Assembly (NCBI GenBank): GCA_023664105.1
Contig: JAMPGF010000003.1
Span: 1 to 41,930, forward strand
Direction: 5' to 3'
Origin: Butyricicoccus sp.
GTDB taxonomy: Bacteria; Bacillota; Clostridia; Oscillospirales; Oscillospiraceae
Length of the DNA stretch: 41,930 bases
Position numbers and translations under genes: made by a program. This document shows, one piece after another, positions 3,770 to 29,497 of the stretch (its first letter is position 1; every line of letters begins with the position of its first letter). The notes below the pieces were generated by a model, which did not search any database, was not told where the DNA came from, and saw nothing but the letters and a program-made list of their open reading frames with translations.

Positions 3770-4696
3770 ATGACAGACCGGGAGCTTTTATACGTCACCA
3801 CCATCGCCCAGGAGGGGAGCCTGACACGGGCCGCCCAGAAGCTGTACATCACCCAGCCCGCCCTGAGCCACAGCCTGACCGGGATCGAGCGCTCGCTGGG
3901 ACAGCCCCTGTTCCGGCGGGAGAGCCGCGGGCTTGTGCTGACCTGCGCCGGCGAGCGGTACTGTGAGACGGCACGGGAAATCCTGCGGATGTACGGAGAC
4001 CTGGAGCAGCAGTTGGGGGAGATCGAGGGCCTGCGGCGGGGCCGTGTGCTGGTGGGCATGACCCGCTTTTTGTCCATGGAGCTGATGCCCCGTGTGTTTC
4101 CTGCGTACCGGAGGCGGTACCCGGGCGTGGAGATTCAGCTGCGGGAGGAGCCGTCGGGCCGGCTGATGGAGATGCTGTCCACCCGGCAGCTGGACCTGGG
4201 GGTAATGAACCTGACGGGGGAGGAGGCGGAGCAGATGGCGGAGGACTATGACTGCCGCGTTTTGTACCGGGACCCCTTCGTCATCGCCGCCGCCAGGGGG
4301 GACCCCATAGGCCGCTTCGCCGAGGACGCCGCCGGGGGCGGCCTGCCCGTGCTGGACCCCCGGTACCTGGAGGGGCGGGCCTTCTGCGCGGTAACGCCGG
4401 GGCAGCGGATCCGCCGGGTGACCGACCGGGTGTTCCGCCAGGCCGGGGTCAAGCCGGAGATAGTGTTCACCTCCTCCAGCTTCGAGACGGCCCGCCGGGT
4501 GGCCTGCTCCGGGCAGGGCATCGCCATGCTCCCGCGCCGGTACGCCGCGCTGCTCTCCGGCGGCGGGGAGGCGGACTACTACGCCCTGCCGGAGGAGTAT
4601 CACGCGCTGCTGCTGGCGGCGGCGGTGCGTTCCAGGGAGAGCTATCTCCCCGCGGCGGCGGCCAGGTTTTTAGAGATTCTGGAGGAGGTGAGATAA
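3770..4696 (+). CDS. LysR-family transcriptional regulator
   Basis: The 308-residue protein begins with a LysR winged helix (MTDRELLYVTTIAQEGSLTRAAQKLYITQPALSHSLTGIE), followed by the usual linker helix and a periplasmic-binding-protein-like effector domain from about residue 90. Starting at ATG 3770 puts the helix at the expected distance from the N terminus. A GTG three codons upstream (3761) is also possible. It is divergent from the hydratase gene with overlapping promoters, so hydratase control is the natural inference. The effector is probably a carboxylic acid related to the hydratase substrate, but nothing in the sequence fixes this. Confidence 0.9.
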   Translation: MTDRELLYVTTIAQEGSLTRAAQKLYITQPALSHSLTGIERSLGQPLFRRESRGLVLTCAGERYCETAREILRMYGDLEQQLGEIEGLRRGRVLVGMTRFLSMELMPRVFPAYRRRYPGVEIQLREEPSGRLMEMLSTRQLDLGVMNLTGEEAEQMAEDYDCRVLYRDPFVIAAARGDPIGRFAEDAAGGGLPVLDPRYLEGRAFCAVTPGQRIRRVTDRVFRQAGVKPEIVFTSSSFETARRVACSGQGIAMLPRRYAALLSGGGEADYYALPEEYHALLLAAAVRSRESYLPAAAARFLEILEEVR

Positions 4697-4716
4697 GGGG
4701 CCGGCCTAAGCCCCTT
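4695..4716. terminator. Hairpin between convergent lysR genes
   Basis: AAGGGGC (4695-4701) pairs with GCCCCTT (4710-4716) across an 8-base loop. The hairpin overlaps the end of the plus-strand lysR and the stop codon of the minus-strand lysR. There is no U tract in either direction, so termination is uncertain. Confidence 0.35.
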
Positions 4717-10632: not shown

Positions 10633-11534
10633 GCCATCCCAATAAAAAGCGGCTTCGCCGCTCCATGATGTTCCTCAACTGCCAGAAGCCCTCGCTTATC
10701 CGCGACCCCTACATCTACCAGCCCGACTCCATCATGCTTGATCTGGAGGACGCCGTGGCGGAGAACCAGAAGGACGCCGCCCGTTTCTCCCTGTTCCATG
10801 CCCTTCGGGAGATCGACTACCGCGGCGTTGAGCGCGTGGTGCGCATCAACGGCCTGGACACCCCCCACTGGCGGGAGGACATCCGGGTCTGCGTGGCCGG
10901 CGGCGCCGACGTAATCCGTATTCCCAAGTGCACCTGCGCCCAGGACGTGCTCACCGTGGAGCAGGCCGTGCAGGCCGCCGAGCGTGAGTTCGGCCGTGAG
11001 GAGGGGAGCACCCTCTTAATGGCGGCGCTGGAGTCCTGTTACGGTGTTTTGAACTGCCTGGAGATCTGCAAGTCCACCGACCGCCTGATCGGCGTGGCGC
11101 TGTCCGGCGGCGACTATACCAAGGACCTGCAGACCGGCATCACCGGCACCGGCGTGGAGCTGATGGGCGCGCGCCAGCACATGATCATCGCGGCCCGCGC
11201 CGCGGGGGTACAGTGCTTCGACACCGTGTTCACCAACCTGGACGACATGGAGGGCTTCCGCAAGGAGACCGAGACAATCCACCTGATGGGCTTTGACGGC
11301 AAATCCCTGGTCAATCCCAGGCAGATCCCCATCGTTCACGAGATCTTTACGCCCAAGGAGAAGGACATCATCTTCGCCGAGAAGGTGGTGCAGGAGATTG
11401 ACAGCAAGAAGGCCCAGGGTATCGGGGTCTTCACGGTAAACGGCAAGATGATCGACATCGCGTTCTATGACGGCGCGAAGCGTACACTGATGCTGGCGAA
11501 GGCCGCCGGCGTTTATGGAGGTGACCTGGTATGA
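10629..11534 (+). CDS. citE: Citrate lyase beta subunit CitE
   Basis: ATG 10629 overlaps the citD stop and follows GGGGAGGTG, giving 301 residues. The protein belongs to the HpcH/HpaI aldolase superfamily with the TIM-barrel signatures MLDLEDAV (near residue 36, acidic residues for Mg), VRINGLDTPHW and DVIRIPKC. CitE cleaves citryl-ACP to acetyl-ACP and oxaloacetate. ALESCYGVLN and ALSGGDYTKDLQ are also as expected for CitE. A longer in-frame start at 10590 lies inside citD and is not needed. Its end overlaps citF by ATGA, so translation is probably coupled. Confidence 0.95.
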   Translation: MSHPNKKRLRRSMMFLNCQKPSLIRDPYIYQPDSIMLDLEDAVAENQKDAARFSLFHALREIDYRGVERVVRINGLDTPHWREDIRVCVAGGADVIRIPKCTCAQDVLTVEQAVQAAEREFGREEGSTLLMAALESCYGVLNCLEICKSTDRLIGVALSGGDYTKDLQTGITGTGVELMGARQHMIIAARAAGVQCFDTVFTNLDDMEGFRKETETIHLMGFDGKSLVNPRQIPIVHEIFTPKEKDIIFAEKVVQEIDSKKAQGIGVFTVNGKMIDIAFYDGAKRTLMLAKAAGVYGGDLV

Positions 11535-13093
11535 TCAACGCAGTAGGACGTGATATCCCCGAGGAGGTCCTGCAGGCCACCGGACGGGACATTTTCCGCG
11601 GCTCTCTCTACCATGACAACAAGGAGTACACCAAGGCCGCGCCCACGGTGCGGGCCAAGATCGACCCCGCGCGGAGCAAGCTGATCGGCTCCATCCGCGA
11701 GGCGCTGGAGAAGTGCGGCGCCCACGACGGCATGACCATCTCCTTCCACCACCACTTCCGCGAGGGCGACTATGTGGTGAACATGGTGATGAAGGAGATC
11801 CATGACATGGGCCTGAAAGACATTTGCATCTGCGCCTCCTCCCTGGGCAAGGCCCACGACCCCATCGTCCCCTACATCGAGGACGGCACCATAACCGGCA
11901 TCCTCTCCTCCGGCGTCCGCGGCAAGATCGGTGAGGCGATCTCCAACGGCAAGCTGCGGGACATCGCGGTGATGTACTCCCACGGCGGCCGGGTACGCTG
12001 CATCGAGGAGGGCAGGGTACACATTGATATCGCATTCATCGGCGCGCCCACCTCCGACGAATGCGGCAACCTGCGTCCCAACGGCGGCAAGTCCAACTGC
12101 GGCGTTCTGTCCTATGCCTATGTGGACGCCCAGTACGCCGACAAGGTGGTTGCGGTGACCGACTGCCTGGTGCCCTTCCCCAACATCCCCGCGTCAATCT
12201 CCATGGTGAACGTGGATTACGTGTGCGTGGTGGACGCCATCGGCGACCCCGCCAAGATCGCCACCGGTGCCGCCAAGCCCACCACCGACCAGCGCAAGCT
12301 GCTGATGGCCAAGTACTGCACCGATTTCGTGGTCTCCACCCCCTATTTCAAGGAGGGCTTCATCTACCAGACCGGCGTGGGCGGCGCGTCCATCGCCTCC
12401 ACCATCTATCTGGCGGATGTCATGCGCCAGCGAAACATCCACATGGGACTGGGCCTCGGCGGTATCGCCACCCCCATGGTGAAGCTGCTGGAGGAGGGCC
12501 TGATCGGCAAGCTGGTGGATACCCAGGACTTCGACCTGGGCGCGGTGGAGTCGGTAGGGAAGAACCCCGACCACGTGGAGATCACCGGCAGCGAGTACGC
12601 CGACCCCATGAATAAGGGCGCCTACGTCAACCAGCTTGACTTCGTCATCCTGGCCGCCCTGGAGGTGGACACCCACTTCAACTGCAACGTGATCACCGAT
12701 TCCACCGGCCTGATCACCGGTGCCCAGGGCGGACACCCTGACACCGCCGCAGGCGCCAAGTGCACCATCATCATCACGCCCCTGCTCCAGGGCCGGTCCC
12801 CGGCGGTGTGCCAGGACGTGACCACCGTCACCACCCCCGGCGAGAGCGTGGACGTGGTCGTGACCGAGTACGGCATCGCCGTCAACCCCCGCCGTCCCGA
12901 CTTGATGGAGGCCGCTCAGAAGTGCGGCGTACCCCTGCACACCATCGAGGAGCTGAAGGACATGGCCTATGCCATCGTGAGTACCCCCGAGCCGATCCAG
13001 TTCGGCGACCGCGTGGTGGGCATTGTTGAGGCCCGTGACGGCACCATCATGGATGTGGTGCGGCAGATGAAGGATTTCGAGTTCGCGGACTGA
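11531..13093 (+). CDS. citF: Citrate lyase alpha subunit CitF
   Basis: The 520-residue protein matches CitF in length and motifs. CitF is the citrate:acetyl-ACP transferase of the lyase complex and has a CoA-transferase fold. Recognisable segments are FHHHFREGDYVVNMVM near residue 75, the glycine-rich GVGGASIASTIYL near residue 280, SEYADPMNKGAYVNQLDFVILAALEVD near residue 355, and the C-terminal TEYGIAVNPRRPDLMEAA. It is the last gene of the tct-cit run and is followed by a terminator. CitDEF together convert citrate to acetate and oxaloacetate. Confidence 0.95.
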   Translation: MINAVGRDIPEEVLQATGRDIFRGSLYHDNKEYTKAAPTVRAKIDPARSKLIGSIREALEKCGAHDGMTISFHHHFREGDYVVNMVMKEIHDMGLKDICICASSLGKAHDPIVPYIEDGTITGILSSGVRGKIGEAISNGKLRDIAVMYSHGGRVRCIEEGRVHIDIAFIGAPTSDECGNLRPNGGKSNCGVLSYAYVDAQYADKVVAVTDCLVPFPNIPASISMVNVDYVCVVDAIGDPAKIATGAAKPTTDQRKLLMAKYCTDFVVSTPYFKEGFIYQTGVGGASIASTIYLADVMRQRNIHMGLGLGGIATPMVKLLEEGLIGKLVDTQDFDLGAVESVGKNPDHVEITGSEYADPMNKGAYVNQLDFVILAALEVDTHFNCNVITDSTGLITGAQGGHPDTAAGAKCTIIITPLLQGRSPAVCQDVTTVTTPGESVDVVVTEYGIAVNPRRPDLMEAAQKCGVPLHTIEELKDMAYAIVSTPEPIQFGDRVVGIVEARDGTIMDVVRQMKDFEFAD

Positions 13094-13168: not shown

Positions 13169-13211
13169 TTCAGTTTATTCGGTAAGCTATTTGCGCAGAT
13201 TCAGCGAAGTA

Positions 13212-13333
13212 ATACTAAACCCTGACGCGCCTACGGCGCTATATCCGGTAGCCCTTGGCGGCTTCGCCGCCTTAGGGATGCCGCATCCCCTTTGGGGAAA
13301 AAGCTCTTTGAGCTTTTTATCAGGGTTTAGTAT
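13212..13333. mobile_element. 122-bp TIR element made of consecutive hairpins
   Basis: Perfect 14-bp terminal inverted repeats (ATACTAAACCCTGA at 13212-13225 and its complement at 13320-13333) bound a non-coding element. Inside are four successive hairpins: GCGCC-TAC-GGCGC, GGCGGC-TTC-GCCGCC, GGGATG-CCG-CATCCC and AAAAAGCTC-TTT-GAGCTTTTT. Size, ends and absence of a reading frame resemble a MITE. I see no clear target-site duplication. Its right 58 bases recur at 86-143. It lies in the gap between the convergent 3' ends of citF and the giant surface-protein gene, where its last hairpin could act as a terminator in both directions. Confidence 0.65.
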
Positions 13334-13337
13334 AATC

Positions 13338-13472
13338 GTTTTTTCCGGCGGCGTGTACGTCGGAAAAAACACTTTGCGTGTAGCGAGCGTGCGAGTTGTC
13401 CGCCTGCGGCGGACAGCGAGTGCGCAGAGCGGAGCGAAGCCTTCTCGAAAAAGTGGCTTTGCCACTTTTTCG
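13338..13472. repeat. Second cluster of perfect hairpins
   Basis: Three perfect inverted repeats follow the TIR element: GTTTTTTCCG with CGGAAAAAAC (13338-13347 and 13361-13370), GTCCGCC-TGC-GGCGGAC (13398-13414), and CGAAAAAGTGGC-TTT-GCCACTTTTTCG (13446-13472). Between them is purine-rich AGCGAGCG / GAGCGAAGC-type sequence. No coding frame is convincing. The three-base loops match the style of the neighbouring element, suggesting a related repeat. Confidence 0.6.
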
Positions 13473-13480
13473 ACACGCTC

Positions 13481-13514
13481 AACCGCCCTGTACCGATTTC
13501 GGTACAGGGCGGTT
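13481..13514. terminator. Bidirectional terminator after the giant gene
   Basis: A perfect 15-bp stem (AACCGCCCTGTACCG / CGGTACAGGGCGGTT) with loop ATTT lies 14 bases beyond the stop of the giant minus-strand gene. On the plus strand it ends in TTTT. On the minus strand the U run is short, with further hairpins beyond. Confidence 0.65.
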
Positions 13515-13527
13515 TTGACGCTTTTTG

Positions 13528-16500
13528 TCAGGTTTTTTCCATGAAGTTTTTCAGCAGCTGTGCCGCCTGAGCGCGGGTGGCCGTTCCACCCGGGTCAAGC
13601 ATACCGCCGCCCACTCCGTTGAGGATGCCGTTCTCCACGGCCCAGCACAGCGCCTCCAGGGCGTAGCCGCTGGCCCGGTCTGCATCAACGAAGTCAAGGG
13701 CCTGGCTGCCGGCCTCGGGGCTTCCGGCGTACCGCCAGAGCATGACAACAAACTGCTCCCGAGTGACATCGTCATTGGGGCCGAACTGGCCGTCGCCGTA
13801 GCCGCCCGCGATGCCGTTCTCCGTGGCCCAGGCGACACCGTCCGCGTACCACGCGCCGTCGCTGACGTCGCTGAACGCGTCGGTCAGATCCATCTCCGGA
13901 TTGCCCTCAAGCCTGTACAGCACGGTGGCAAGCATACCGCGGCTCATGGCCAAGTCCGGGCTGAACGTTGTCTCGCTCGTGCCGCCGAACAGCTCATGTG
14001 AGCTGGCGAAGTCCACGGCACCGGCCTCCCAGCTCTCGGGCGGGACATCGTCGAAGTCCTTGCTGTTGTCCACGATCTCCACGGTGGCGGAGCCGCTCAG
14101 GGGAATGCTCATCACACCGTCAGTCACGACGGAATTGCGCACGGTTTCCCGCGTGCCGTCCTCGTTGACCAGGACGGCCACGGTGCCTGGGGCGGCGTCC
14201 TCCACCGGGACGCTGAGCGTCACGCCGCCGGGAACCTGTTTCACGGTCTCGCCGCCGGAGGTCACGGTCAGCGCCACCGACTGCTCCGCGTTCCCGACAG
14301 CGACGCTGACGCTGCCGCCCGACTGGCCCAAGGTATCCAGCGCCTTGTTAGGTATGGTCACGTCAGCGACAGGGGAGGAGACGGTGAGTGCCGCGTCCGT
14401 GTCGCTGCTCAGCTTACTTACCGTCGAGGACGGGATAGAGACCTCCGATTTGGTCACGTCGCCGGTGATTTCCGGCTTGATAACGACGTTCCGGCTCTTG
14501 CTGGCCACGGCCTGCTGCACCAGCCTGCTGCCGTCCGAGGCGCTCAAAACGGTGCTCGCCGTGCCGCCGCGTACGGTGGTCTGCGTCTGTGCCTGCGCCG
14601 GGGTACTGCTGGGCTCGTTTGAGGTCTGCTGCACTGGAGCAGTGACCTGAACCTGAATGGTGCGCGTGTTGTAGTTGGCCTTGTACTCATCATTCGGCCT
14701 GAAGATCACGTTATATGAGGTTCCACTGGTGGGTTTGATGCTGCCATCCTCCCATTCAAAATTGCCGGGAATGTCGGTCGCACCGCCGTCCAGCCTGATG
14801 GCACTGAGCGTTTCCCCCCAGCCGCTTGCCGCGGGATGGCTGGAAATGTACGGATCAGCCTTCTTGATCTCCACCTCCACCTCCGCGGCGGGGATACCGG
14901 TGTAGTTGACGCTGTCCGCCACCTTGTACCAGACGGAGTACATCCCGGCGTTGGTGCCTGTGGGGATGTTTTCCGAATACACGCCCTTCTCGCTTGTGCT
15001 GTAGACGATCGTGCCTATGCCGCCCACCGTTGCGCCGCCGGTGAGAAGCTCCTGAGCCTTGGGCTGGCCGTTTTCTACGGTGTAAGTCAGGCCCTCAACG
15101 GGCTTCGGGGCGTTTTCGGTTTCAATCTTCACGTCCACCATGTAGATCGACGCCGTCGTGGTCTCGGGCCAGGTGATTTGATAATTGGGATCTGTGACCT
15201 TTGGATCCTCACTGTATACGATTTTGACTGTCTTGTTTGTTCCGACATTCTCATCGTCAAAGGTACCCGTTGCAGTAATTTCGGCGTTGATTTCAGGCAC
15301 GGTAAGCGTTACAGCAGTATTTTTGCTGGTGTCATACCCTCTGCTTGCAGCCTTCGCAACAGCGGTGATCGGCTTCGGATTGGCGACAAAGGGCACGCTG
15401 GCCGTGTTGGATTTGCCGTAGCCGTCGGAAGCTTCCCGGTATGCCTGGACGGTAAATCCGCCCGTTCCGGTCACCTTCACCACACCGTTGCCGTCAACGG
15501 CTGCGGGTGCGTTTTCCTCCTTGATGCTCCACTGGATCGCCCCGCTTCCGGAGCCGCCCATGGCGCTCAGCCGGAAGGTGTCGCCGTAATAGACGTCGGA
15601 GGGCTTTTCGGTGATGATGGACAGGGGGGCCTGGCTGGACGCTACGATTTTGAAGGCGCCGCCTGTCGTGGAGCTAAACTCGTAGTTGCCGCCCGGATTG
15701 TCTGTGACGGCTACCTCGTAGCTTTCATCTTTCGCCGCGATTGCGGTCGGAATCGTCACGGTGTACTCGCTCTCCGGGATGATGCGGTTCTCGCCGTCCC
15801 GTACCACGACCGCCGGCGTCTTCGCCGAGCCGTCAAACTGGAAGGTATCCGGCACACACAGGACGCTGGGCGTATCGGTGTTCGGTGCGATCTTGACAGG
15901 CTCCATCTCCACCGCTTTGCTGTCCCTGTAGTTGCTGTTATCGGCGACTGCCTTGTACCAGACGGTGTAGCTCTTCGCGTCCTTACCCGTGGGCACGGCG
16001 TAGGTGTAGTTCTCGCCGTCCAGGGAGTACTTGATATTGCCGCCGCTCGCCTCGCCCCTGTTTACCAGCTCCAGCGGCTCGCCGGTGTACTGAAGGCCCG
16101 TTTTGGCTGTCGGCGCTTTTTCCTCGTTCACCTTTGCCTCTGCCGGGATGATGGTCGCCGTGGTGGTATCATCGCGGCTGATGTCGTATTTCCTGCTGAT
16201 CTCGTCCGGGACGGTCAGACCGGTAATATATACGGTCTTGTCTGCCCCGGCGCTGGCGTTCCTGAAGTAGCCCGTCACGGTAAAGCTGTCGCTGCCGATA
16301 CTGTCCCCGGAGACCAGGCCGGTGACGATGACAGACCAGGAGGTGACGGACGTATTGCCGTCATAGGTCTTATCCTCCGCCGTCACGATTGCTTTGACGG
16401 GCTTCGGGTAGGCGTAGAGGTCCTTCGTCTTGGTCACGCCGCCGGCGGTGGCGCTGATGGTAATGGGGCCGGGGCCGGTGATCCTGAACTGTCCGCCGCC

Positions 16501-19500
16501 CTGGGAGGCGGCCTCTCCGCTTTCGACCTTCCACGTCACCGTGCCGGAGCCTCCAGTGGTGCCCAGCCGGAAGGTGTCGCCGTAGTAGACGGTCTCCGGC
16601 AGGCCGGTGATGGTCAGCTCGGGGGCGTCGCCCTCCGTGATGGTGAAGTGGACAGTCTTGCTGAAGCTGTAATTCCTGGTCGTGCTGGTAACCGTGACAT
16701 CGGCCTGACCCACGTTGATGTTGTTTTTGTAGCTCACCGAGTACTCGCTGGCCGGGATGATGACGTTGTTCTCCACATCCTGGACCGTGACGGTGGGCTT
16801 CAGCTCGCTGCCGGTGTACTTGAGGCTGTTGTCGGACAGGTCGACGTTCAGTTTGTTCTCGGCTATTGTGTTCTTGCCGATGGATACCCGGTACGATTTG
16901 ACATCGCTGTCGGCATAGAAGTCGTTGCCCTCCACTTTGGCCCTGACCGCATAGCTGCCTACCTCAGTCGCAGTGGGGATGAAGGGAGAAAACTCCCCGC
17001 CGCTCAGCGAGTAGACCACGGTACAGTCGTTTTTCCCCTCACCAGAATACACAAGCTCCTGCTCCTCGCCTGTGTAGACCAGATTCTCAACGGGGGCGGG
17101 TACCAGATCAAATTCTGCTTTGGCCTTTGTGATCTCGAACGTCGCGGTCGTGTAGAACTTGTAATTGCCGTTGCTCCTGCTCTGAACTGTGACTGACGCG
17201 GTGCCGGGGTTGCGGTTGTCTGCATATCCGACGATGTAGTAGTCCTTTACGGGAGTAAGCGGCTCGCCCTCCACGACAACGGTCACGCCGGGTTCCAGGT
17301 CCCCGTCGGTATACGGTGTGGAATACTTTGTCTTGCCCTCCACCAGCACGGTAGGCGTGACCTGCTTCGGGGAAATCGTTACCGTCAGGGTCTGGGGCGA
17401 GGTGTCTCCGTAGCCGGGGTTGCCCACGACCTTGTAATAGACGTCGTAATCATCCGCATCGGTTTCCTTGGGGATCGCCATGTTGTAGCTCGTGCCGTCC
17501 GTTGAGTATTCCAGATGGCCGTTCACCGCGCTGCCCGCCGTCACAAGGGCCTGCGCTTTTCCGGTGTAGGTCAGGTCCTTCTCCTGAGGCGCAAGCGTCA
17601 GAGTTGCCGTGCCCGCCTTGATCGTAAATGTCACCTCGCCGCTGACGGTATAGTTTCCGCCTTCGGCGTCGCTGATTATGACCTTGGCGGTATCATTCCC
17701 CGCCTGCACGTTGTTGCTGTAGCCCACCAGATACTCACCGGCGGGGATCACCTTGCTGCTGTCCTTGACCGTGACATCGGGCCGCTTCGGGCTGCCGTCG
17801 TAGTCGAAGCTGTCGGGGGACAGGGTGACGTTTTCACCGGTAACATTCAGCGTTTTCGGACTGATGGTCACAGGCAGGGCCTTCGGGGCGACATCCGCGT
17901 AATTCGCGCTGCCCTCGACCTTGTACCAGACCGTATACGTCCCCGCGTTTGTCTCCTTTGGAATATCCCGGCTGTAGATGACATCATCCAGGGAATACAG
18001 GATATCCCCGTTTGTCGCGCTGCCGCCGATGACCAGCTCCTGCCGCTGGCCGTTGTAGGTCAGCTCCTTAGGCGTAGGCGCGATCACCGTTGCCGCTCCC
18101 GCGGTAATGGAGGCGGTCGTCGTGTCGTTCCAGCTGATCTTGTACTTGTCGTTGTCGGGAGGCGTGCCGGCGATATTGACCGTCTTGTTGTCCCCGACGT
18201 TGGCATTGCTGAATGTGCCGGTCAGGTTCAGCGTAACGGTATCGCCGTTCAGCAGATCGCCGGGTTTCCAGCTGATGACCAGCTCTGCATCAAGCTTACT
18301 GTCATACTCCTTGTCCTTGGCGGTCACGATTGCCGTAACGGGTCTCTTTTCCGCGCTGAACGTCCAGCTGGCCGTGGTTGTGCCGTATCCGTCGGCCTCC
18401 CTCGTGGCCGTGATGGTGATCGGGCCGCCGGCCTTCCAAATCGTGACCAGGCCATTCTGGTCGATGGTGGCGATGTCCTGCTTGTCGCTCGACCACGTCA
18501 CGGTGCCCGTTCCGGAGCCGCCGTTTGTGCTTAGCGTAAAGCTGTCGCCGTACTGAACCTTGCCCGGCTGGTTCACGATGGACAGCGGGCTCTGGCCCGT
18601 CGCGGAGATGGTAAAGGTCTTGGGTGTGTCGGTGATATCGTAGTTGCCGCCAACCTTCCCGGCCTTGTTCTTGACCGTGACCGTATGGTCTTTGGCGCTC
18701 CTCCAGTCCGTGTCGCCGTATTCGACGTCGTACTCGAGATCCGGTATGATACGGCCATTGTTGTCCTTGATCGTGACCGTGGGCTTATGCACGCCGCCGT
18801 CATACAAGGCGCCGGTGGGCGTGAGCTCGATAACAGGATTCTCCACCTTCTGCCGGGCGATGGTTATTCGCGTAGTCTCCGTCAGCTTCGTGCCCGCCGT
18901 ATCCTTGTGGTTGCCGTCGCCCTTAACGCGGTACCAGACATCATAGCTGTCCGCGTCGGTGCCGGTGGGCAGGGAGGTGGAATAGGTACTGTTGTCCGTC
19001 GAGTATTCCAGTGTGCCCTCCGGGGAGGAACCGGCTTTGACCAGATACTGCGCAAGGCCGGTGTACTCCAACCCAGTCTCAGCCGTCGGAGCGGTTACCT
19101 TTGTTTCGTCCACATCCGCCTTAAATATCGACGCGGTAGCCGTGGCGGGGTAGTTGATAATGTAGTTCTCATAATTGCCCTTACACTCGCTGAAATCCGG
19201 ATTTGTGCGGTCAACATTCACCTTTTTGTCCGTTCCGGCGCTGGCGTCCTCAAAACTGCTGCCGGGCAGTGTGATCTTGACCGTATCTCCGCTTACCAAA
19301 TCGCTGTCCTGGAGCGTAGCGGTCACGGTGGCGTCCGTTTCGCCGTCGTAGGTCTTGGCCTCCGCGGTCACAACGGCATTGACCTGCTTCTTCTCCGCGA
19401 AGAACGTCCATGTAGCCGTCTGATCGGTGTAGCCAGCAGCGGAGCTGGTGGCCGTGACCGTGACGGAGCCCACGCCTGCGATTGTGAGCAGTCCGCTGCT

Positions 19501-22500
19501 GATGCTCGCAATGTCGCTGCCGCCGGCGTCTTTGCCCTCAACCTTCCACTCAATCGTCCCGCCGTCGGAACCGCCCGACGTGCCCAGCTGGAACTTATCG
19601 CCGTAGCAGACGCGCTCCCGCGTGCCGGTGATGGTCAGCGGCGTTTGATCCGCCGCGAGGATCTCAAAGGTTTTGCTGCTGTCATTGATCCGGTAGTTGG
19701 AGCTTTCTGTATTTTTGACCGTGACAGTGTATGTGCCGGCCTTTGTCAGATCAGCGTTGCCCTCGGCATCCTTATAGGTCACCGTGTACTCGCTGCCGTC
19801 AATCAACATGCCGCTGCCGTCCTTGACAGTGACCGTGGGCTCCTGCTTCTTCCCGTTGAACGTCACCGAGCCCGGCGTCACCTGGACAGTGGGATTATCC
19901 ACGGTGTTCACGATGATGGAAGCGGCCACCGGGTCAGGCTCGGGGACTGTGTCGTTGTGGTTGCTGTCGCCCTGAACCTTGTAGTAGATATCATAATTGC
20001 CCACAGCCGTCTGCGTGGGGATAGCCGGGGAATAGTCGCCGTCCTCACTCAGGGCGTACACCATCGTGCCGCTGGACGCGCTGCCCGCCGTAATTAGCTC
20101 CTGCGCGGCGCCGTTGTAGGGCAGACCTGTCTTGCCGACTGGGGGCTTCACATCCGAAACGTCGGCTTTCCCGATGATAAAGCTGCCCGTGCCGTTGACG
20201 ATGTAGTTGCCGCCGTTGGCGTTAGTGATAACGACCGTCGCCGTCCCGGCGTTGATGTTGTCGCGGTAGGATACGGTATACTCATCGGTCGGGATGGTCG
20301 TCTCGCCGTCCTTTACCTTGACCTCATCATCGTCCGTCTTGCCCGGTTCCTTCGGGCTGCCATCGTAAGTGCAGCCGCCTGTTACCTCCACCGTGACCTC
20401 CGGGCTGACGACCTCCTTCGGCTTGATGGTCACGGATACCGTCCAGGTCTCGCCGCTGCTGGTATAGTTGCCGTCGCCCACGACCTTGTACGTTACAGTG
20501 TACGTGCCCGCGTTGGTTCCCTTGGGGATGGCCTCGCTATAGGTGTCGTTGTCCTGCAAATACTCGATGTGTCCGCCGCTGGCGGTGCCTACGGTCACCA
20601 GCTCCTGCTCCTGCCCGGTGTAGGTCAGGCTCCTCGCCTCCGGAGACTTCGTCAGCTGCGCGGCGGCACCGGTAATCGTAAAGTTCACGGTCTGCTCGGC
20701 AAAGGTGTAGTTGCCGCCCTCGTTGCAGGTGATGGTCACAGTGCCCTTTGCGTCATCGGTACTGACATTCTTATTGTTGCTGTAGCTGACCGCATACTCG
20801 CCGGCCGGAACCACCGCGTCGCCGTCCTTGATGGTGACATTGGGCTCCTTATCGCTGCCGTCGAACACGTAGGAGCAGTTTCCGTCCTCATCCTTCTTCA
20901 AATCGTTGCCGGACAGGGTGATATCCAAAGTCTCCGGCTTCCTCGGGCTTATGGTCACCGTCACATCCTGCGGCGCGGAATCGTTGTGGTTGGCGTCGCC
21001 CAGCTCCTTGTACCAGACGGTGTAAGTCCCCGCGTTGGTCCCGGTTGGGACGTTCGTGGAATACACGCCGTCCCGGCTGTTGGAGTAGCGCGTATCAGTG
21101 TCGCCGCCGATTACCAAAGCCTGGGCAGAGCGGTTGTATTCCAGCGTATTCGCCGTCACAGCGGGCGCGTCCGTGTCCGCCTTGAGTATGGACGCGGTAG
21201 TGGTACGCGGAATCGTGATGGCGTACTTCTGACTGGTTGCATCATTTACGGGGTCGCCGTTGACTGTCACGGCCTTGTCCTGCCCGACATTAGCATCCGC
21301 GAACGATCCGGTTATTGGCGTGGTATTGATGCTGTCGTTCCCCACCAGATCCCCGGCCTTCCAGCTGACATTTATCGTGACGCTGGTATCATTTTCCGCA
21401 AACACCCTGTCGTCCGCGCTCACGATGGCCGTGACGGGTTTCCTCAGCGCGTTGAGGGGATAGGTTGCCGTCGCGTCGTCGTAGTTCGCACCGCCGGGTC
21501 TTGTCGCGGTAATGGTAGCGGAGCCTGTGCCGACGATTTTTACAAAGCCATTTTGGTCGATCTCAACAACACCCGCAGCTGGTTCCGCGCTCCATGTGAC
21601 CGCGGCGTTTCCGGAGCCGCCGACAGCGCTCAGGGTAAATGTGTCGCCGTAGTAGACGAAGCCGGGCTTGTTGGTGATCTCCAGCGGGTCCTGCGCTGTC
21701 GTGCTGATGGTGAACTGTGCTGTAACACCATCAGCAATAACATAGTTGCCGCGGTCGATATCCTCGATCTTGACGGTGTAATCGCCCTTGTCCGTCCAGT
21801 TCTCATTGTTGTCGGAAACATATGTGACCTTGTACTCGCTCGCCGGGATCACGTTGTTGTCGCCATCCCAGAGGGTGACCGTGGGCTTATGCTCTCCGCC
21901 GTCATACTTCGCGCCGGAAGGTGACAGCCCGACCGTAGGATTCACATTCTGCTTTCCGACCGTCGCCTGCACGCTGTCGACCTCGCTGTCGGTGTGGTTG
22001 CCATCGCCCTGGGCCTTGAAATATACCGTGTAAGTATCGGCGTCCTTGGCCTTGGGGATAGAGGACGTGAAATTGCTGCCGTCCAGGGAGTAGACCATTA
22101 TGCCGCCTGTCACCGTACCCGCCGTGACCAGCTCCTGGGCCTGGCTGGCGTCGTAGGTCAGAGCCGGGGTCACAGTTCCCGGTCCTGCATCCACAGTTGC
22201 GGCAATCGCCTTGATAGACGCGGCAGTCGCGGCGGGATAGGTGATCTCATAGTTGTCCGCGTTAGTTCCGGTGACGGACGCGCCATCGCTGTCCACCGTC
22301 ACCTTCTTGTCGGTGCCGACATTGGGGTCGTCAAATTCGCCGGTCACGCCGTTGATGGTGATGGAGTCGCCCTCCACCAGCGCGCTGGCCGGGACGGAGA
22401 CATGCACCGTGGCCGTTTTATTGCCGTCGATAAAGTCCCTGTCGTCCGCGGTCACGACCGCCGTGACCTGCTTTTTTGCCGCGCTGAACTCCCAAGCGGC

Positions 22501-25500
22501 GGACACTTCGTTGTAGTTTCCGCCCGCGGAGCGCTTCACCGTCACTGTGAGTGTTTTGCCCTGGTCCTTTACGGTGAGCAGTCCGGTGCTGCTGATCTCG
22601 CTGTTTACCGCATTTCCGTCAGCGCCTTTTACCTCCCAGGTGACCGTCCCGGAGCCGGTGCCGCCGGTGATACCCAGCTGAATGGTGTCGCCATAGCGGA
22701 CCTGGGCCTTGATGCCGGTGATGGAAACCGTCTCCTGGTTCGCCGGTACGATCTCAAAGGTGCGGGTGTTGCCGGTCGTGATGATGTAATTGGAGTTTTC
22801 AGGCGTGGTGACCGTCACGGTGTAAGTGTCTACGTCGACCATAGCAGAGCTGTCATTTTTGCCTTCAATCTTTACTGTGTACTCATGCTCCGGAATCACG
22901 AGGCCGTTGTCATCGCGGACGGTGACAGTCGGCTTCTGCTCGCTGCCGTTGTACTGGAACTGATACGAGGACAGCGTGATCCCGGGGGTGTTCACGGTGT
23001 TCCTGGCGATTGTCACCGTACCAAGTTCTGTGGGAGCCGTATCGCTGTGGTTCGCGTCGCCCAGAACCTTGTAGCTGATCTCATAGTCGCCCACCGCCGA
23101 GGCAGAGGGAATGGCAGAGGAGTAGTTCCCGCCGTTTACCGAGTAGGCCACCGTGCCGTCGCCGGACACACCGGCCTTGACCAGCTCCTGGACAGCGCCG
23201 CTGTACTGCAAGCCTGTTTTCATCTCCGGGGCATCAAAGACAGGAGGCGCCTTTTCGATCTTAAAGGTTGCCGTACCGTTGACGATGTAGTTCCCGCCGT
23301 TATTGTCGCTGACAGTGACCGTTGCGGTGCCCGCGCCGGTGTTGTTGAGGTAGTCCACGGAGTACTCGGTTTCAGCAATCGGGTCAAGATCAGCGCCGGT
23401 GTTGACGCCTCCACTAACGGTGACGGTGGGCCTGCACTCATTGCCGTCATACACATAGGAAGCCGGGTTCAGCGTGATCTTCGGGGTGATCGTCTTGGGC
23501 TTGATAGTCACGGACACCTGGCCGGGCGCGGTATCGTCGTGGTTGGCGTCGCCCTTAACCATATAGTAGACGGTGTAAGTGCCCGCGTTGGTTTCATGGG
23601 GGATGGCCTCCGAATAGGAGCCAGACGCGCCGGTGGGGGAGTACATCACCGTGCCGCCTGTGGCGGTGCCCACGTTCACCAGATCCTGGGCGCTGCCGTC
23701 ATAGGTCAGATCCTTGGCCTTGGGAGTCTCGGTCAGCACCGCGGCGCGGCGTTGGATCTCGAACTGCACCTTTGCGGTCACAAAGGTGTAGTTGCCTCCC
23801 TCGCTGGCTGTGACGGTCACGTCCGCTGTGCCGACATTCTTGTTCTTGGCGTAGTCAACGGTGTAGTCGCTGGCCGCGAGCGCAGCGCTGTAGCCGCCTT
23901 CGTCCGAACAGGTGACAGTGACGTTAGGCCTCTTCTCGGCGCCGTCGAAAGCATAGTAGTATTTGCCGCTGTCGTCCGTCTGCAAATCATGGTCGGACAG
24001 CGTAACGCTCACGTTAACCTCTCTGGGCGTGATGTCAGCATGAGCTGTGTCGGGGATGCTGACCGCGTACTTGCCGGTATCGCAGGTGACGGTGAACCCA
24101 TCACGGGCCAGATTGACGGTCTTGCCGGTGCCGGCGTTGACATCGGCAAACGTACCCTTCAGGCCGACAATTGAGATAGTATCAGCGGAATCAACCAGGT
24201 CGCTGCTTTTTACCTCCGCCGTGATATCATTTTCGTCAATGCTGTTGGTTCCGTCATAGGCCTTCGGCTTGACAGTTACATCCGCTATGACCGGCTTCGG
24301 CTCCACAGTGAACGTCCAGGTATCGGTCACCGGCGCGTAGTTGGGGAGAGTCCGCTCCGCCGTAACAGTGATGGAGCCGGTGCCCGTGACAGTGAGCTCA
24401 CCTGTGTCCGGGTCGATATCGGCGCTGCTTTCACCTGCCGTAATGCTCCATGTCACCTTACCGTTTCCGGGTCCGCCGGTGGCACCGGGCTTGACCGTGT
24501 CGCCGTAATAGACGTGTTCAGGCTTGCCGGTGATCTCCAACGAATTCTGGGTAGCCGCGACGATCTCCGCCGTAGCGGTCGCGGAGAACGTGTAGTTCCC
24601 GCCGTCCACATTTTTGATGGCCGCCGTATACGTCCCGGCAGCCTTCAACTCCGTGACAGTTTGGCCGTTTTCATCCGTCCAAACGACCGTGTACTGCTTC
24701 TTGTCAACCACTGTTTCGCCATCCATGACCGTGATCGTCGGGTTTTTTCTCGCGCCGTCGTACGGATAAGAGTTCTCCGTCACCTCGATCACAGGCGTGG
24801 TGATGGGCTTGGGAGCGATGGTCACTTCCACAGGCGCCCCGTTCACCGTCACTCCGGTATAATCGTCGGTGCCGTCCACCTTATAATAGACGTTGTAAGT
24901 ACCCGCGTTTGTCCCGGTGGGGATTTCCTCGGAATACGGCCCGTTCTCGTTCAGCGAATACACGATAAAGCCCACATTGGTCTTACCCGCCGTGACCAGC
25001 GCCTGTGCCTGGCCGCTGTAGGTCAGCGGGTCGATTTTCCCGGGGGCGGTGGTAATTTCAGCGGCCGCCTGCGTAATATTCGCTGTCACCGTCTCGGGGT
25101 AGCTGATGGCGTACTTGCCCGCGTCGTCTCCGGTCACCTCGACCTTGGAGGCATCCAGCGTGACGGTTTTCCCCTCCCCAACCGAGGGAGTATCAAATGC
25201 GGCGGAGATGCTGTTCGTGTCAATTATGACCGTATCGCCGTTTATCGCGGCTATACCGGCGGAGGACACAGTGGCGCTTGTATTGCCGTCATAGGGCTTA
25301 TTATCTACCCTGACAGCAGCCTCGACAGGCCTCGGCGCGGCGGTGAAGCTCCACTGGGTCTCGGCGGCGAGGTAGTTGTTATCCGCCGCTTTCTTCACCG
25401 TGACGGTCACGTCGCCCACGCCGGTGATGGTAAAGCTTGCCTTGCCGTCTGCGTCTACGTCCACACTGACGGGGCCGGTTCTTTCCCACGTCACCTCGCC

Positions 25501-28500
25501 GTCCCCGCTGCCGCCGCTGACGGTCAGCTGGAAGCTGTCCCCGTAGTTGGTAGCCGCCGGCTTCCCGCCGATGACCAGCTCTTCCTGCGGGATCTGGCCG
25601 ATGGTGAAGTCCTTGGTATTTTCAGTAACACCGGCCAGGTCATAATTGCCGTCCGCCTTATCGGTTATCTTGATGGTGTAGGTCCCTACGTTCGTCGGAG
25701 ATTCTACACGATTATTTTCCGCATCTGTGCAGACCCATTCGTACTCCCCCTCAGGCAGCAGCGTTTTCCCATCCCAAACCTTGATTTCTGGCATTTTTGC
25801 CGTGCCGTCATACTCAAAGCTCTCCGGCGACAGCTCGATGGTGACCTCGGTCAGCGGCTTGCGGTTGATCTTCACGCCCTCTACTTCCGTCGCCGCAAGA
25901 CTGTTGTGGTTTTTATCGCCATTCACCTTGTACCAGACCCTGTAAGTCCCCGCCTCGGTGGCGGTGGGGATTGCGGCGGTGTAGGTACTCGTCGGGCTGT
26001 TCAGCGCGTACAGCACCTCGCCGCCGGAGGTCGTCCCCGGAACCAGCAGCTCGTGGGGTTTGCCGTCGTAGGTGATAACAGCCGCGCTCGAGGCCGGATT
26101 AAACTCAATATCCGCCTTTTGGATCACGAATGTCGTCGAACCCGTCACGGTGTAATTTCCGCCCGGCTTGTCGGTGATGTTGACGGTGCCTTTCCCGGCG
26201 TCAATGTTGTCGCTGTAGAGCACATTGTACTCGCCGGGTTTGCTGTCGTCACCGGCAAAAATCACATCGCTGCCGTCCTTGACAACGACCGTGGGCATTT
26301 TCGCGCTGCCGTCATAGGTATAGCTGACCAGGGGATTCTCGCCGTCAAACAGTTCAATGGTCGGGTCCTTCACCGTCTTGGGCGCAATGGTCACGGCTGC
26401 CTCACCCACCTCGGAATCGCTGTGGTTTCCGTCGCCCTGCACCTTGTAGTATACCGTGTACTTGGCAGCGTCGGTTTTGACAGGAATGTTTGCCGAATAA
26501 GAATCCCCATTGTCTTTATCCAGCGAATACACCATCGTCCCGCCGTACGCCGCGCCCGCGGTCACCAGCTTCTGGTCACGGTTATTAAAGGTCAGCGGAT
26601 CGCCCGCGGCTTCCGGCGCGGTGAGGACCCTGGCCGGCTCTTTTTTGATCTCGAATTTTTCGGTAACAGGATTGTTGGGCGTAAACTCGTAGTTGCCGCC
26701 GTCCGTGGACGTGACGGTCACGGTGGCGTCGCCCACATTGATGTTATTGCTGTAGCCTACAGTGTAGTTGCTCTCCGGGATCACGTCCACGCCGTCTTTA
26801 ACGGTAACCGTCGGTTTTTTCTCATTCCCGTCGTAGATGTAGGAACAGGTTCCATCCGCCGCCGCCGTCAAGCCATTGCCGCTCAGCTCAACCGTGGGCG
26901 TCACCTGTTTTTTGCTGATCGTCACATCCACACTGGCCGGAGGCAGACCGGTGTAATTGTCGGTTTCCTCCACCCGGTACCAGACGGTGTAGTTGCCCGC
27001 GTTTGTCCCTTCCGGGATATTCGTGGAATAGCTGCCGTCCTCGCTCATGGCGTACTCCACCGACACGCCCGCGGCGTCCGCTTTCAGCACATCATCACCA
27101 ATCAGTGCCTGCGCCGCGCCGCTGTAGGTCAGCGCTGCGGCATCCTTCTCTTTAGTGATATGCACGACCGCCTTATGTATCGCTGCCGTGACGGTGGTGC
27201 TGGAATATGTAACGGCGTAGTGCCCGGAATTATTGCCGGTGATGGACGCGCCGCTTATATCCACCGTCACCGTCTTGTTCTCCCCGGCGTTCTCATCGCT
27301 GAACGTGCCGGTCAATCCGGTGATCGTGATCTCATCTCCGGGAAGAACACCCTGTTCCACCGCGGCATGAACCCTGGCTGCCTTCAGGTCATCGCCGCCG
27401 TAGGTTTCGCCGTAGAATTTATCCTCTGCCGTCACCGTCGCGGTGACCTTCTTTTTTTCAGCGGTGACCGTCCAGGACGCGGTGGCGTCATCGTAATTGA
27501 TTATGGAAGCGTTAGCGGGGTCTTTACCGGATTTTGTAGCCTTCACGGTGAACTCGCCGTCGCCGACGATGGTGACCTGCCCGCTCTTCGCGCCTACCTC
27601 CGCGACTTTTACACCGCCGACGTCTATGATCTCCCAGGTAACATCGCCGCTGCCCGAACCGCCGGTCGTGCCCAGGGTGAACTTATCCCCGTAGGTGATG
27701 GTGTCGGGCTGCTTTGTGATGGACAGCGCCTCCTGCTCTTTGGAGGTAATTTGGAATGTGGCAGTAGCTGGTTTGAGCTTGTAGTTGCCATTATCTGCAT
27801 TGTTGACTGTGACAGTAGCCGTACCCACATTTCGGTTGTCGCTATAAGAAAATGTGTACTCGCTCTTCGGAATTACATATTCTCCGTCCTTGACGGTGAC
27901 CCCCGGCTCCTTATACTCGCCGGTAAACATGGTTTTGTAATAATCCAGCTCTACCGCAGGCTCGATCTCCCTGTGGTTGATTCGTGCAGTGAGCTGTCCC
28001 GACTGGCCGGTAAAGTTCTCCGTATCCGCCACCCGATACCAGACGTAATAAGTGCTCACGTTAGTTTCGGTGGGAATATCCGTGGAGTAAGGGCCGTCCT
28101 TGGCCCGCGCAAACACGATCTCCGCCCCCTCGGCCGCCGCGCCGGGCTTCAGAGCGCCCGCCGTCACCAGCTCCTGGGCCTCGCGGTTGTACTCCGCCGT
28201 TCTGCCCAAGGGCGCGGTCGTGACCGCCGGAATCTTGTTGACAGTCAGCGTCAGCAGTTCCGTCTCCGCTGCCTCAAAGTTATTGCTCTTCTCCAGGTAC
28301 GCCTTGACCTCATACTTTCCCGCGTTTGTGGGCAGGCCCCCGGTAAACTCGTCCTCTGTTTCAGCCGTCCGGTATGCGTATTGGAGATACGGATGCAGAT
28401 CCTCGGAGGCTTTTATGGTAATGGTTATACCCGGCAGATCCTCGCTGTCAACCGGGCTGCCGTCATAGTCCACAGTGCAGGCGGCAGCATTCCAGCTGAT

Positions 28501-29424: not shown

Positions 29425-29497
29425 GACAAAAACCTCCCAAACGCACAAGGTGGCAGCGCGCAGCGCATAGACCCCCATCTTGATACGGCTATTTTAC

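Follow-up and report, generated by a model that had tools for sequence, protein, structure and literature searches.

A 120-bp sequence (13213-13332) in the analyzed window, a 41,930-nucleotide stretch from Butyricicoccus sp., very probably belongs to a family of non-autonomous transposable elements functionally like the pneumococcal BOX elements. Copies of this family have TACT...AGTA ends, are inserted at T-N-A (mainly TYTRA) with duplication of three bases, and are dispersed. The family is short, multi-copy, and devoid of coding capacity, and it is bounded by a terminal inverted repeat of only 5-6 bp. These traits, together with a 3-bp target-site duplication and one empty orthologous site, uphold the original prediction of a MITE-like mobile element. 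The features assigned within the window are as follows.

13210-13212, + strand: left copy of the target duplication (TAA), from the sequence; a like pattern occurs in 86/106 insertions
13213-13332, + strand: element, TACTAA...TTAGTA, comprising only the right domain of the canonical family, from sequence and copy comparison
13219-13225, + strand: left arm of the closing stem, ACCCTGA, equal to stem 4 of the canonical element, from fold and alignment
13227-13239, + strand: hairpin 5, GCGCC-TAC-GGCGC, conserved in the canonical element, from fold and alignment
13246-13283, + strand: optional module Y, a long hairpin with a GGCGGC-TTC-GCCGCC core, from fold and copy comparison
13287-13297, + strand: optional module Z, CCCC-TTT-GGGG, from fold and copy comparison
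13298-13318, + strand: hairpin 6, AAAAAGCTC-TTT-GAGCTTTTT, conserved in the canonical element, from fold and alignment
13320-13326, + strand: right arm of the closing stem, TCAGGGT, from inverted-repeat search and alignment
13333-13335, + strand: right copy of the target duplication (TAA), from the sequence
1-142, + strand: second copy, of longer form, cut by the contig start (model R1 match, 92 bits)
1217-1305, + strand: third copy, a left domain with a degenerate right domain (model R1 match, 77 bits)

The perfect 14-bp inverted repeat that had drawn attention to this locus is present (13212-13225 with 13320-13333), but only TACTA...TAGTA is a true terminal repeat. The 14-bp match joins the true end, TACTAA/TTAGTA, to the stem ACCCTGA/TCAGGGT, which lies in the interior of full-length copies. 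Inner stem 4 directly adjoins TACTAA in the window copy, which therefore mimics a 14-bp terminal repeat. With the arrangement 4-5-Y-Z-6, this copy represents the right domain alone and is the only one of such form seen. Its left domain was probably lost by deletion between TACTAA and CATTAAAACCC, after which the inner stem would resemble a 14-bp terminal repeat; the copy may have moved in the 4-5-Y-Z-6 form or have undergone the deletion at its present site. The four consecutive hairpins that had been described were recovered, with three-base loops closed by C-G in all four (TAC, TTC, TTT, and TTT) rather than in three. The strand at 13213-13332 is predicted to fold into a multi-hairpin structure at -77.2 kcal/mol versus -48.1 for shuffled sequences (z = -7.6), with none of 200 dinucleotide shuffles reaching so low a value. 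The reported recurrence of the right half 13 kb away at 56 of 58 positions was located at 86-143 (97% of the 58 positions) and corresponds to the right 58 bp of the second copy. The third copy is preceded by TTA at 1214-1216.

The window copy occupies the intergenic gap of a convergent gene pair (11531-13093 on the + strand and 13528-29478 on the - strand). We take the former to encode the alpha subunit of citrate lyase, having named it by reading. The latter is a highly repetitive open frame of 5,316 amino acids, the C-terminal end of which presumably contains S-layer homology repeats, again named by reading. At 13308-13336, the right end of the element, the duplicated TAA, and the next T make up a promoter-like pair, TTGAGC-17-TATAAT (0.1 in shuffles); insertion at a TAA followed by T could thus create an outward promoter. 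Directly downstream, at 13372-13482, lies a second hairpin-rich repeat with 84-93% copies elsewhere in this genome on different contigs (L015, L106, L030, and L023) and weaker copies in other genera (L334 and L145).

At the DNA level, the 2.0-Mb draft genome that contains the window yielded 81 matches, and 108 with a longer composite query. Pattern searches gave 52 right ends and 46 left ends, with zero for both when the patterns were reversed. Merging matches within 350 bp yielded 74 loci on 53 contigs; the true copy number is likely higher because many contigs end inside a copy. The element is thus not confined to two copies held at orthologous sites, as ~74 loci and one empty site were found. 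Complete copies start with TNA-TACTA and finish with TAGTA-TNA. In the commonest, canonical form of 147 bp, TACTA is followed by hairpins 1-2-3, the linker CGTCTCATTA, stem 4 around hairpins 5 and 6, and TAGTA. An unpaired CGTCTCAT linker separates the left hairpins from the closing stem, and other copies gain or lose modules X, Y, and Z. A larger hairpin element with TACTG...TAGTA ends (L206, ~4260-4700) encloses an insertion of the 147-bp family, which suggests that more related families exist.

Searching relatives for the ends and hairpins, as originally proposed, extended the family well beyond this genome. A covariance model built from 11 aligned copies (six genomes, four genera) matched 56 of the 400 genomes sampled from the family, in 27 of 106 genera, and gave no match in 397 other genomes drawn across the phylum; the genomes searched are mostly metagenome assemblies. 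Most of the host genomes named by an exact-pattern scan belong to uncultured Oscillospiraceae, Ruminococcaceae, and Clostridia of the rumen and gut. A contig labelled Pyramidobacter, from another phylum, also contains a copy (L305:2055-2243) and is probably misbinned. Rfam contained no match at gathering or relaxed thresholds, and neither a MITE in Oscillospiraceae nor BOX-like repeats elsewhere were found in the openly licensed literature. On the best reading, the family is unnamed in the libraries searched and is not a known named family.

Both ends were available for 106 distinct insertions, of which 86 are flanked by identical triplets (shuffled mean 33, maximum 47), consisting of 39 TGA, 32 TAA, 9 TCA, and 6 TTA. 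TNA is present on both sides in 95 of the 106. The 20 insertions with unequal triplets have mutation, recombination between copies, or misassignment of an end as possible causes. Read toward the left end, the target consensus is TYTRA, with the left end following TRA. TRA occurs in 71 of the 86 insertions with identical triplets (p = 7e-10). It likewise outnumbers TYA by 27 to 5 (27/32) at TNA sites where no long frame ends; the bias persists without a long-frame stop, and orientation therefore comes from target choice. Thirty-six insertions coincide with the stop codon of a long open frame (80 codons or more; 28 sense, 8 antisense), as counted from open frames rather than annotated genes. As a control, such a frame ends at 9.5% of the full set of TNA sites in the loci with these insertions, a figure that pools intergenic sites with the rest. 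The element lands frequently on stop codons because TAA and TGA are preferred targets, and the 3-bp duplication preserves the stop codon on insertion. Insertion at TRA with duplication is a simple route onto stop codons without breaking genes.

Comparison of empty and filled sites, which had been proposed as a check, gave one clean empty orthologous site. In one genome (G420), an element is inserted between the TAA stop and the terminator hairpin of a spoIVB-like gene. At the orthologous site of a second genome (G184), the gene, a single TAA, and the terminator are contiguous. We take the gene at both sites to be spoIVB.

Across 27 genera, compensatory changes maintain the multi-hairpin shape of the ~147-bp form. 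In the 11-copy alignment, 24 of 51 pairs show two-sided change, and the covariation score is 0.331 versus 0.123 for shuffled alignments, with none of 500 shuffles of the 11 sequences reaching 0.331. Sliding the pairing partners reduces pairing to 28-43%. Across 139 distinct copies, Watson-Crick pairs fill 94.6% of 6,587 pair cells, a fraction inflated by fitting these alignments to the model. Constraint at the RNA level would favor G·U over A·C, and a G·U-tolerant model should, if anything, raise G·U over A·C. The two were nevertheless indistinguishable, with 83 G·U versus 100 A·C among the 6,587 cells (p = 0.24) and 33 versus 39 in the first sequence set. In tRNA genes from the same loci, G·U reached 6.1% and A·C was 0, although this control is biased in that the tRNA finder itself disfavors A·C. 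As G·U is no commoner than A·C, the pairing constraint is strand-symmetric and points to DNA folding or palindrome correction. The element had been suggested to be either a structured RNA or a single-stranded DNA substrate; strand-symmetric pairing disfavors the former and favors pairing in DNA. Judged from these sequence counts, we favor the view that pairing is important in DNA, or is restored there, and not in RNA. The same G·U-versus-A·C test tells DNA-level from RNA-level pairing and is usable on other "structured" repeats. Equal G·U and A·C would likewise result, strand-symmetrically, if the hairpins had no role and template-switch correction during replication kept the arms of such imperfect palindromes identical, leaving a plain short-ended MITE. 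We regard this explanation as unlikely, as such correction alone fails to account for the six-helix arrangement and the unpaired linker kept across 27 genera.

The transposase with matching ends expected from the original prediction was not found in the four families searched. Among genes matching DDE_Tnp_1, DDE_Tnp_4, Y1_Tnp, or rve in 12 element-bearing genomes, none is flanked by TACTA...TAGTA ends. DDE_Tnp_1 and DDE_Tnp_4 gave no match in the genome with ~74 loci (G000); the former was absent from others too, the latter produced no match over the cut-off, and rve genes lacked these ends. No transposase-like family recurs across genera near the elements as a possible helper. Open frames bounded by hairpin-bearing TNATACT ends proved to be mostly pairs of separate elements, with no evident transposase inside.

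Derivation by deletion from a conventional IS of the IS5 or IS1182 type present in these genomes would explain why an IS1182-like IS carries an element copy in its leader in two genera, and why an IS5-like IS in another genome (G361) is joined to TACTAA/TTAG motifs. This origin is nonetheless improbable. In the IS1182-like IS, CAGTCTGTC ends of its own lie beyond the element copy, the IS5-like IS has GGAACC ends and YTAR-type flanks and hence uses the element as a target, and G000 has its ~74 loci with neither DDE match. As to the ISs themselves, the IS1182-like IS with CAGTCTGTC ends (L146:1002-2721 and L225:1-1585) holds the element copy between promoter region and transposase gene. Its versions in the two genera differ by one mismatch and one ~40-bp gap over 1,625 bp, a closeness that may be due to horizontal transfer or to cross-contamination between the two rumen assemblies. 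The IS5-like IS is found repeatedly at YTAR motifs, including TACTAA/TTAG element ends (L234:259-992, L236, L224, L228, and L231), and in L234 has inverted TACTAA on both flanks.

If the family were instead a conserved structured RNA (small RNA, terminator, or 3'-UTR element) carried along or retained by the genes upstream of it, the strong covariation would reflect RNA folding. Such an RNA would also suit the 28 sense versus 8 antisense stop-codon placements and the A-stem/U-stem of hairpin 6, which is like a bidirectional terminator. We consider this reading very improbable: G·U is no commoner than A·C, unlike in tRNA stems; the orientation bias comes from target choice; target duplications and the empty site show movement; and Rfam has no match. 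A single-stranded DNA element of the IS200/IS605 or REPIN/RAYT type, whose Y1 (HUH) transposase recognizes subterminal hairpins, would fit hairpins that start right at the element termini and are conserved in shape, and Y1 genes in 7 of the 12 element-bearing genomes, but is most improbable, given that Y1 elements lack target duplication whereas the middle base here matches on both sides, that a Y1 match is missing from five of the 12 genomes (one of them G322, whose copies are near-identical), and that no significant model match lies near any Y1 locus (best E 0.05).

We therefore return to a non-autonomous, BOX-like element family. Its copies would be moved by a DDE-type transposase encoded elsewhere that cuts with a 3-nt stagger and recognizes the ends together with the hairpins, possibly acting on a folded single strand. 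Strain typing has made use of BOX elements for decades, yet their mobilizer is unsettled. A BOX pattern scan of IMG/VR viral contigs gave no hit with a first pattern and two contigs with a shorter one. These two records hold one locus, with a BOX copy reading CCATTT-TAA-TACTCTTCG...TTGAGTA-TAA-ACATT. The copy directly follows ...EEELPF*, and hence sits on a stop codon, of what we take to be the ssb C-terminus. At this one examined locus, BOX resembles the present family in its TACT...AGTA ends, its 3-bp TAA duplication, and its insertion at a stop codon, here that of ssb. The present family and BOX of S. pneumoniae and S. mitis are also alike in modular hairpin composition, about 100 or more copies per genome, low mobility, and a disputed mobilizer (PMC3049150). 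Published work describes terminal repeats and target duplications for BOX and names ISSpn2 as its possible mobilizer, with low-level similarity only (PMC3049150). The two differ in their interiors: BLAST of the BOX copy against all loci gave chance-level similarity outside the BOX records, with nothing corresponding to boxA, boxB, or boxC, and model R1 finds no match in BOX records. Moreover, BOX closes with one long end-to-end stem, whereas here the left domain forms three separate hairpins and the closing stem is confined to the right domain. The family works in the manner of BOX, but its sequence places it outside BOX. It is conceivable, if doubtful, that the two are branches of one superfamily, whose undescribed transposase would read hairpin-folded DNA ends rather than sequence, its 3-nt stagger at TYTRA giving stop-codon insertion with restoration. 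With BOX-like ends and target rule, a wholly different interior, and at least 27 genera, the family offers an independent set of genomes for finding the responsible enzyme.

Other repeats share part of this behavior. Like RUP and other IS-dependent MITEs, the element is short, non-autonomous, and dispersed, with a target duplication. RUP duplicates TA. Its ends are described as IS630-like (PMC3049150), whereas the present family uses a 3-bp TNA and no source IS was found. REPINs with their RAYT transposases are likewise paired hairpins dispersed in intergenic DNA; in contrast to these, the present family makes a direct target duplication, and the RAYT-like genes seen here lie amid other hairpin repeats. 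Those RAYT-like Y1 genes (L388, L391, and L394) are surrounded by quite different short hairpin repeats, such as GTAGGGGCGGACGACTCTGTCCGCCC.
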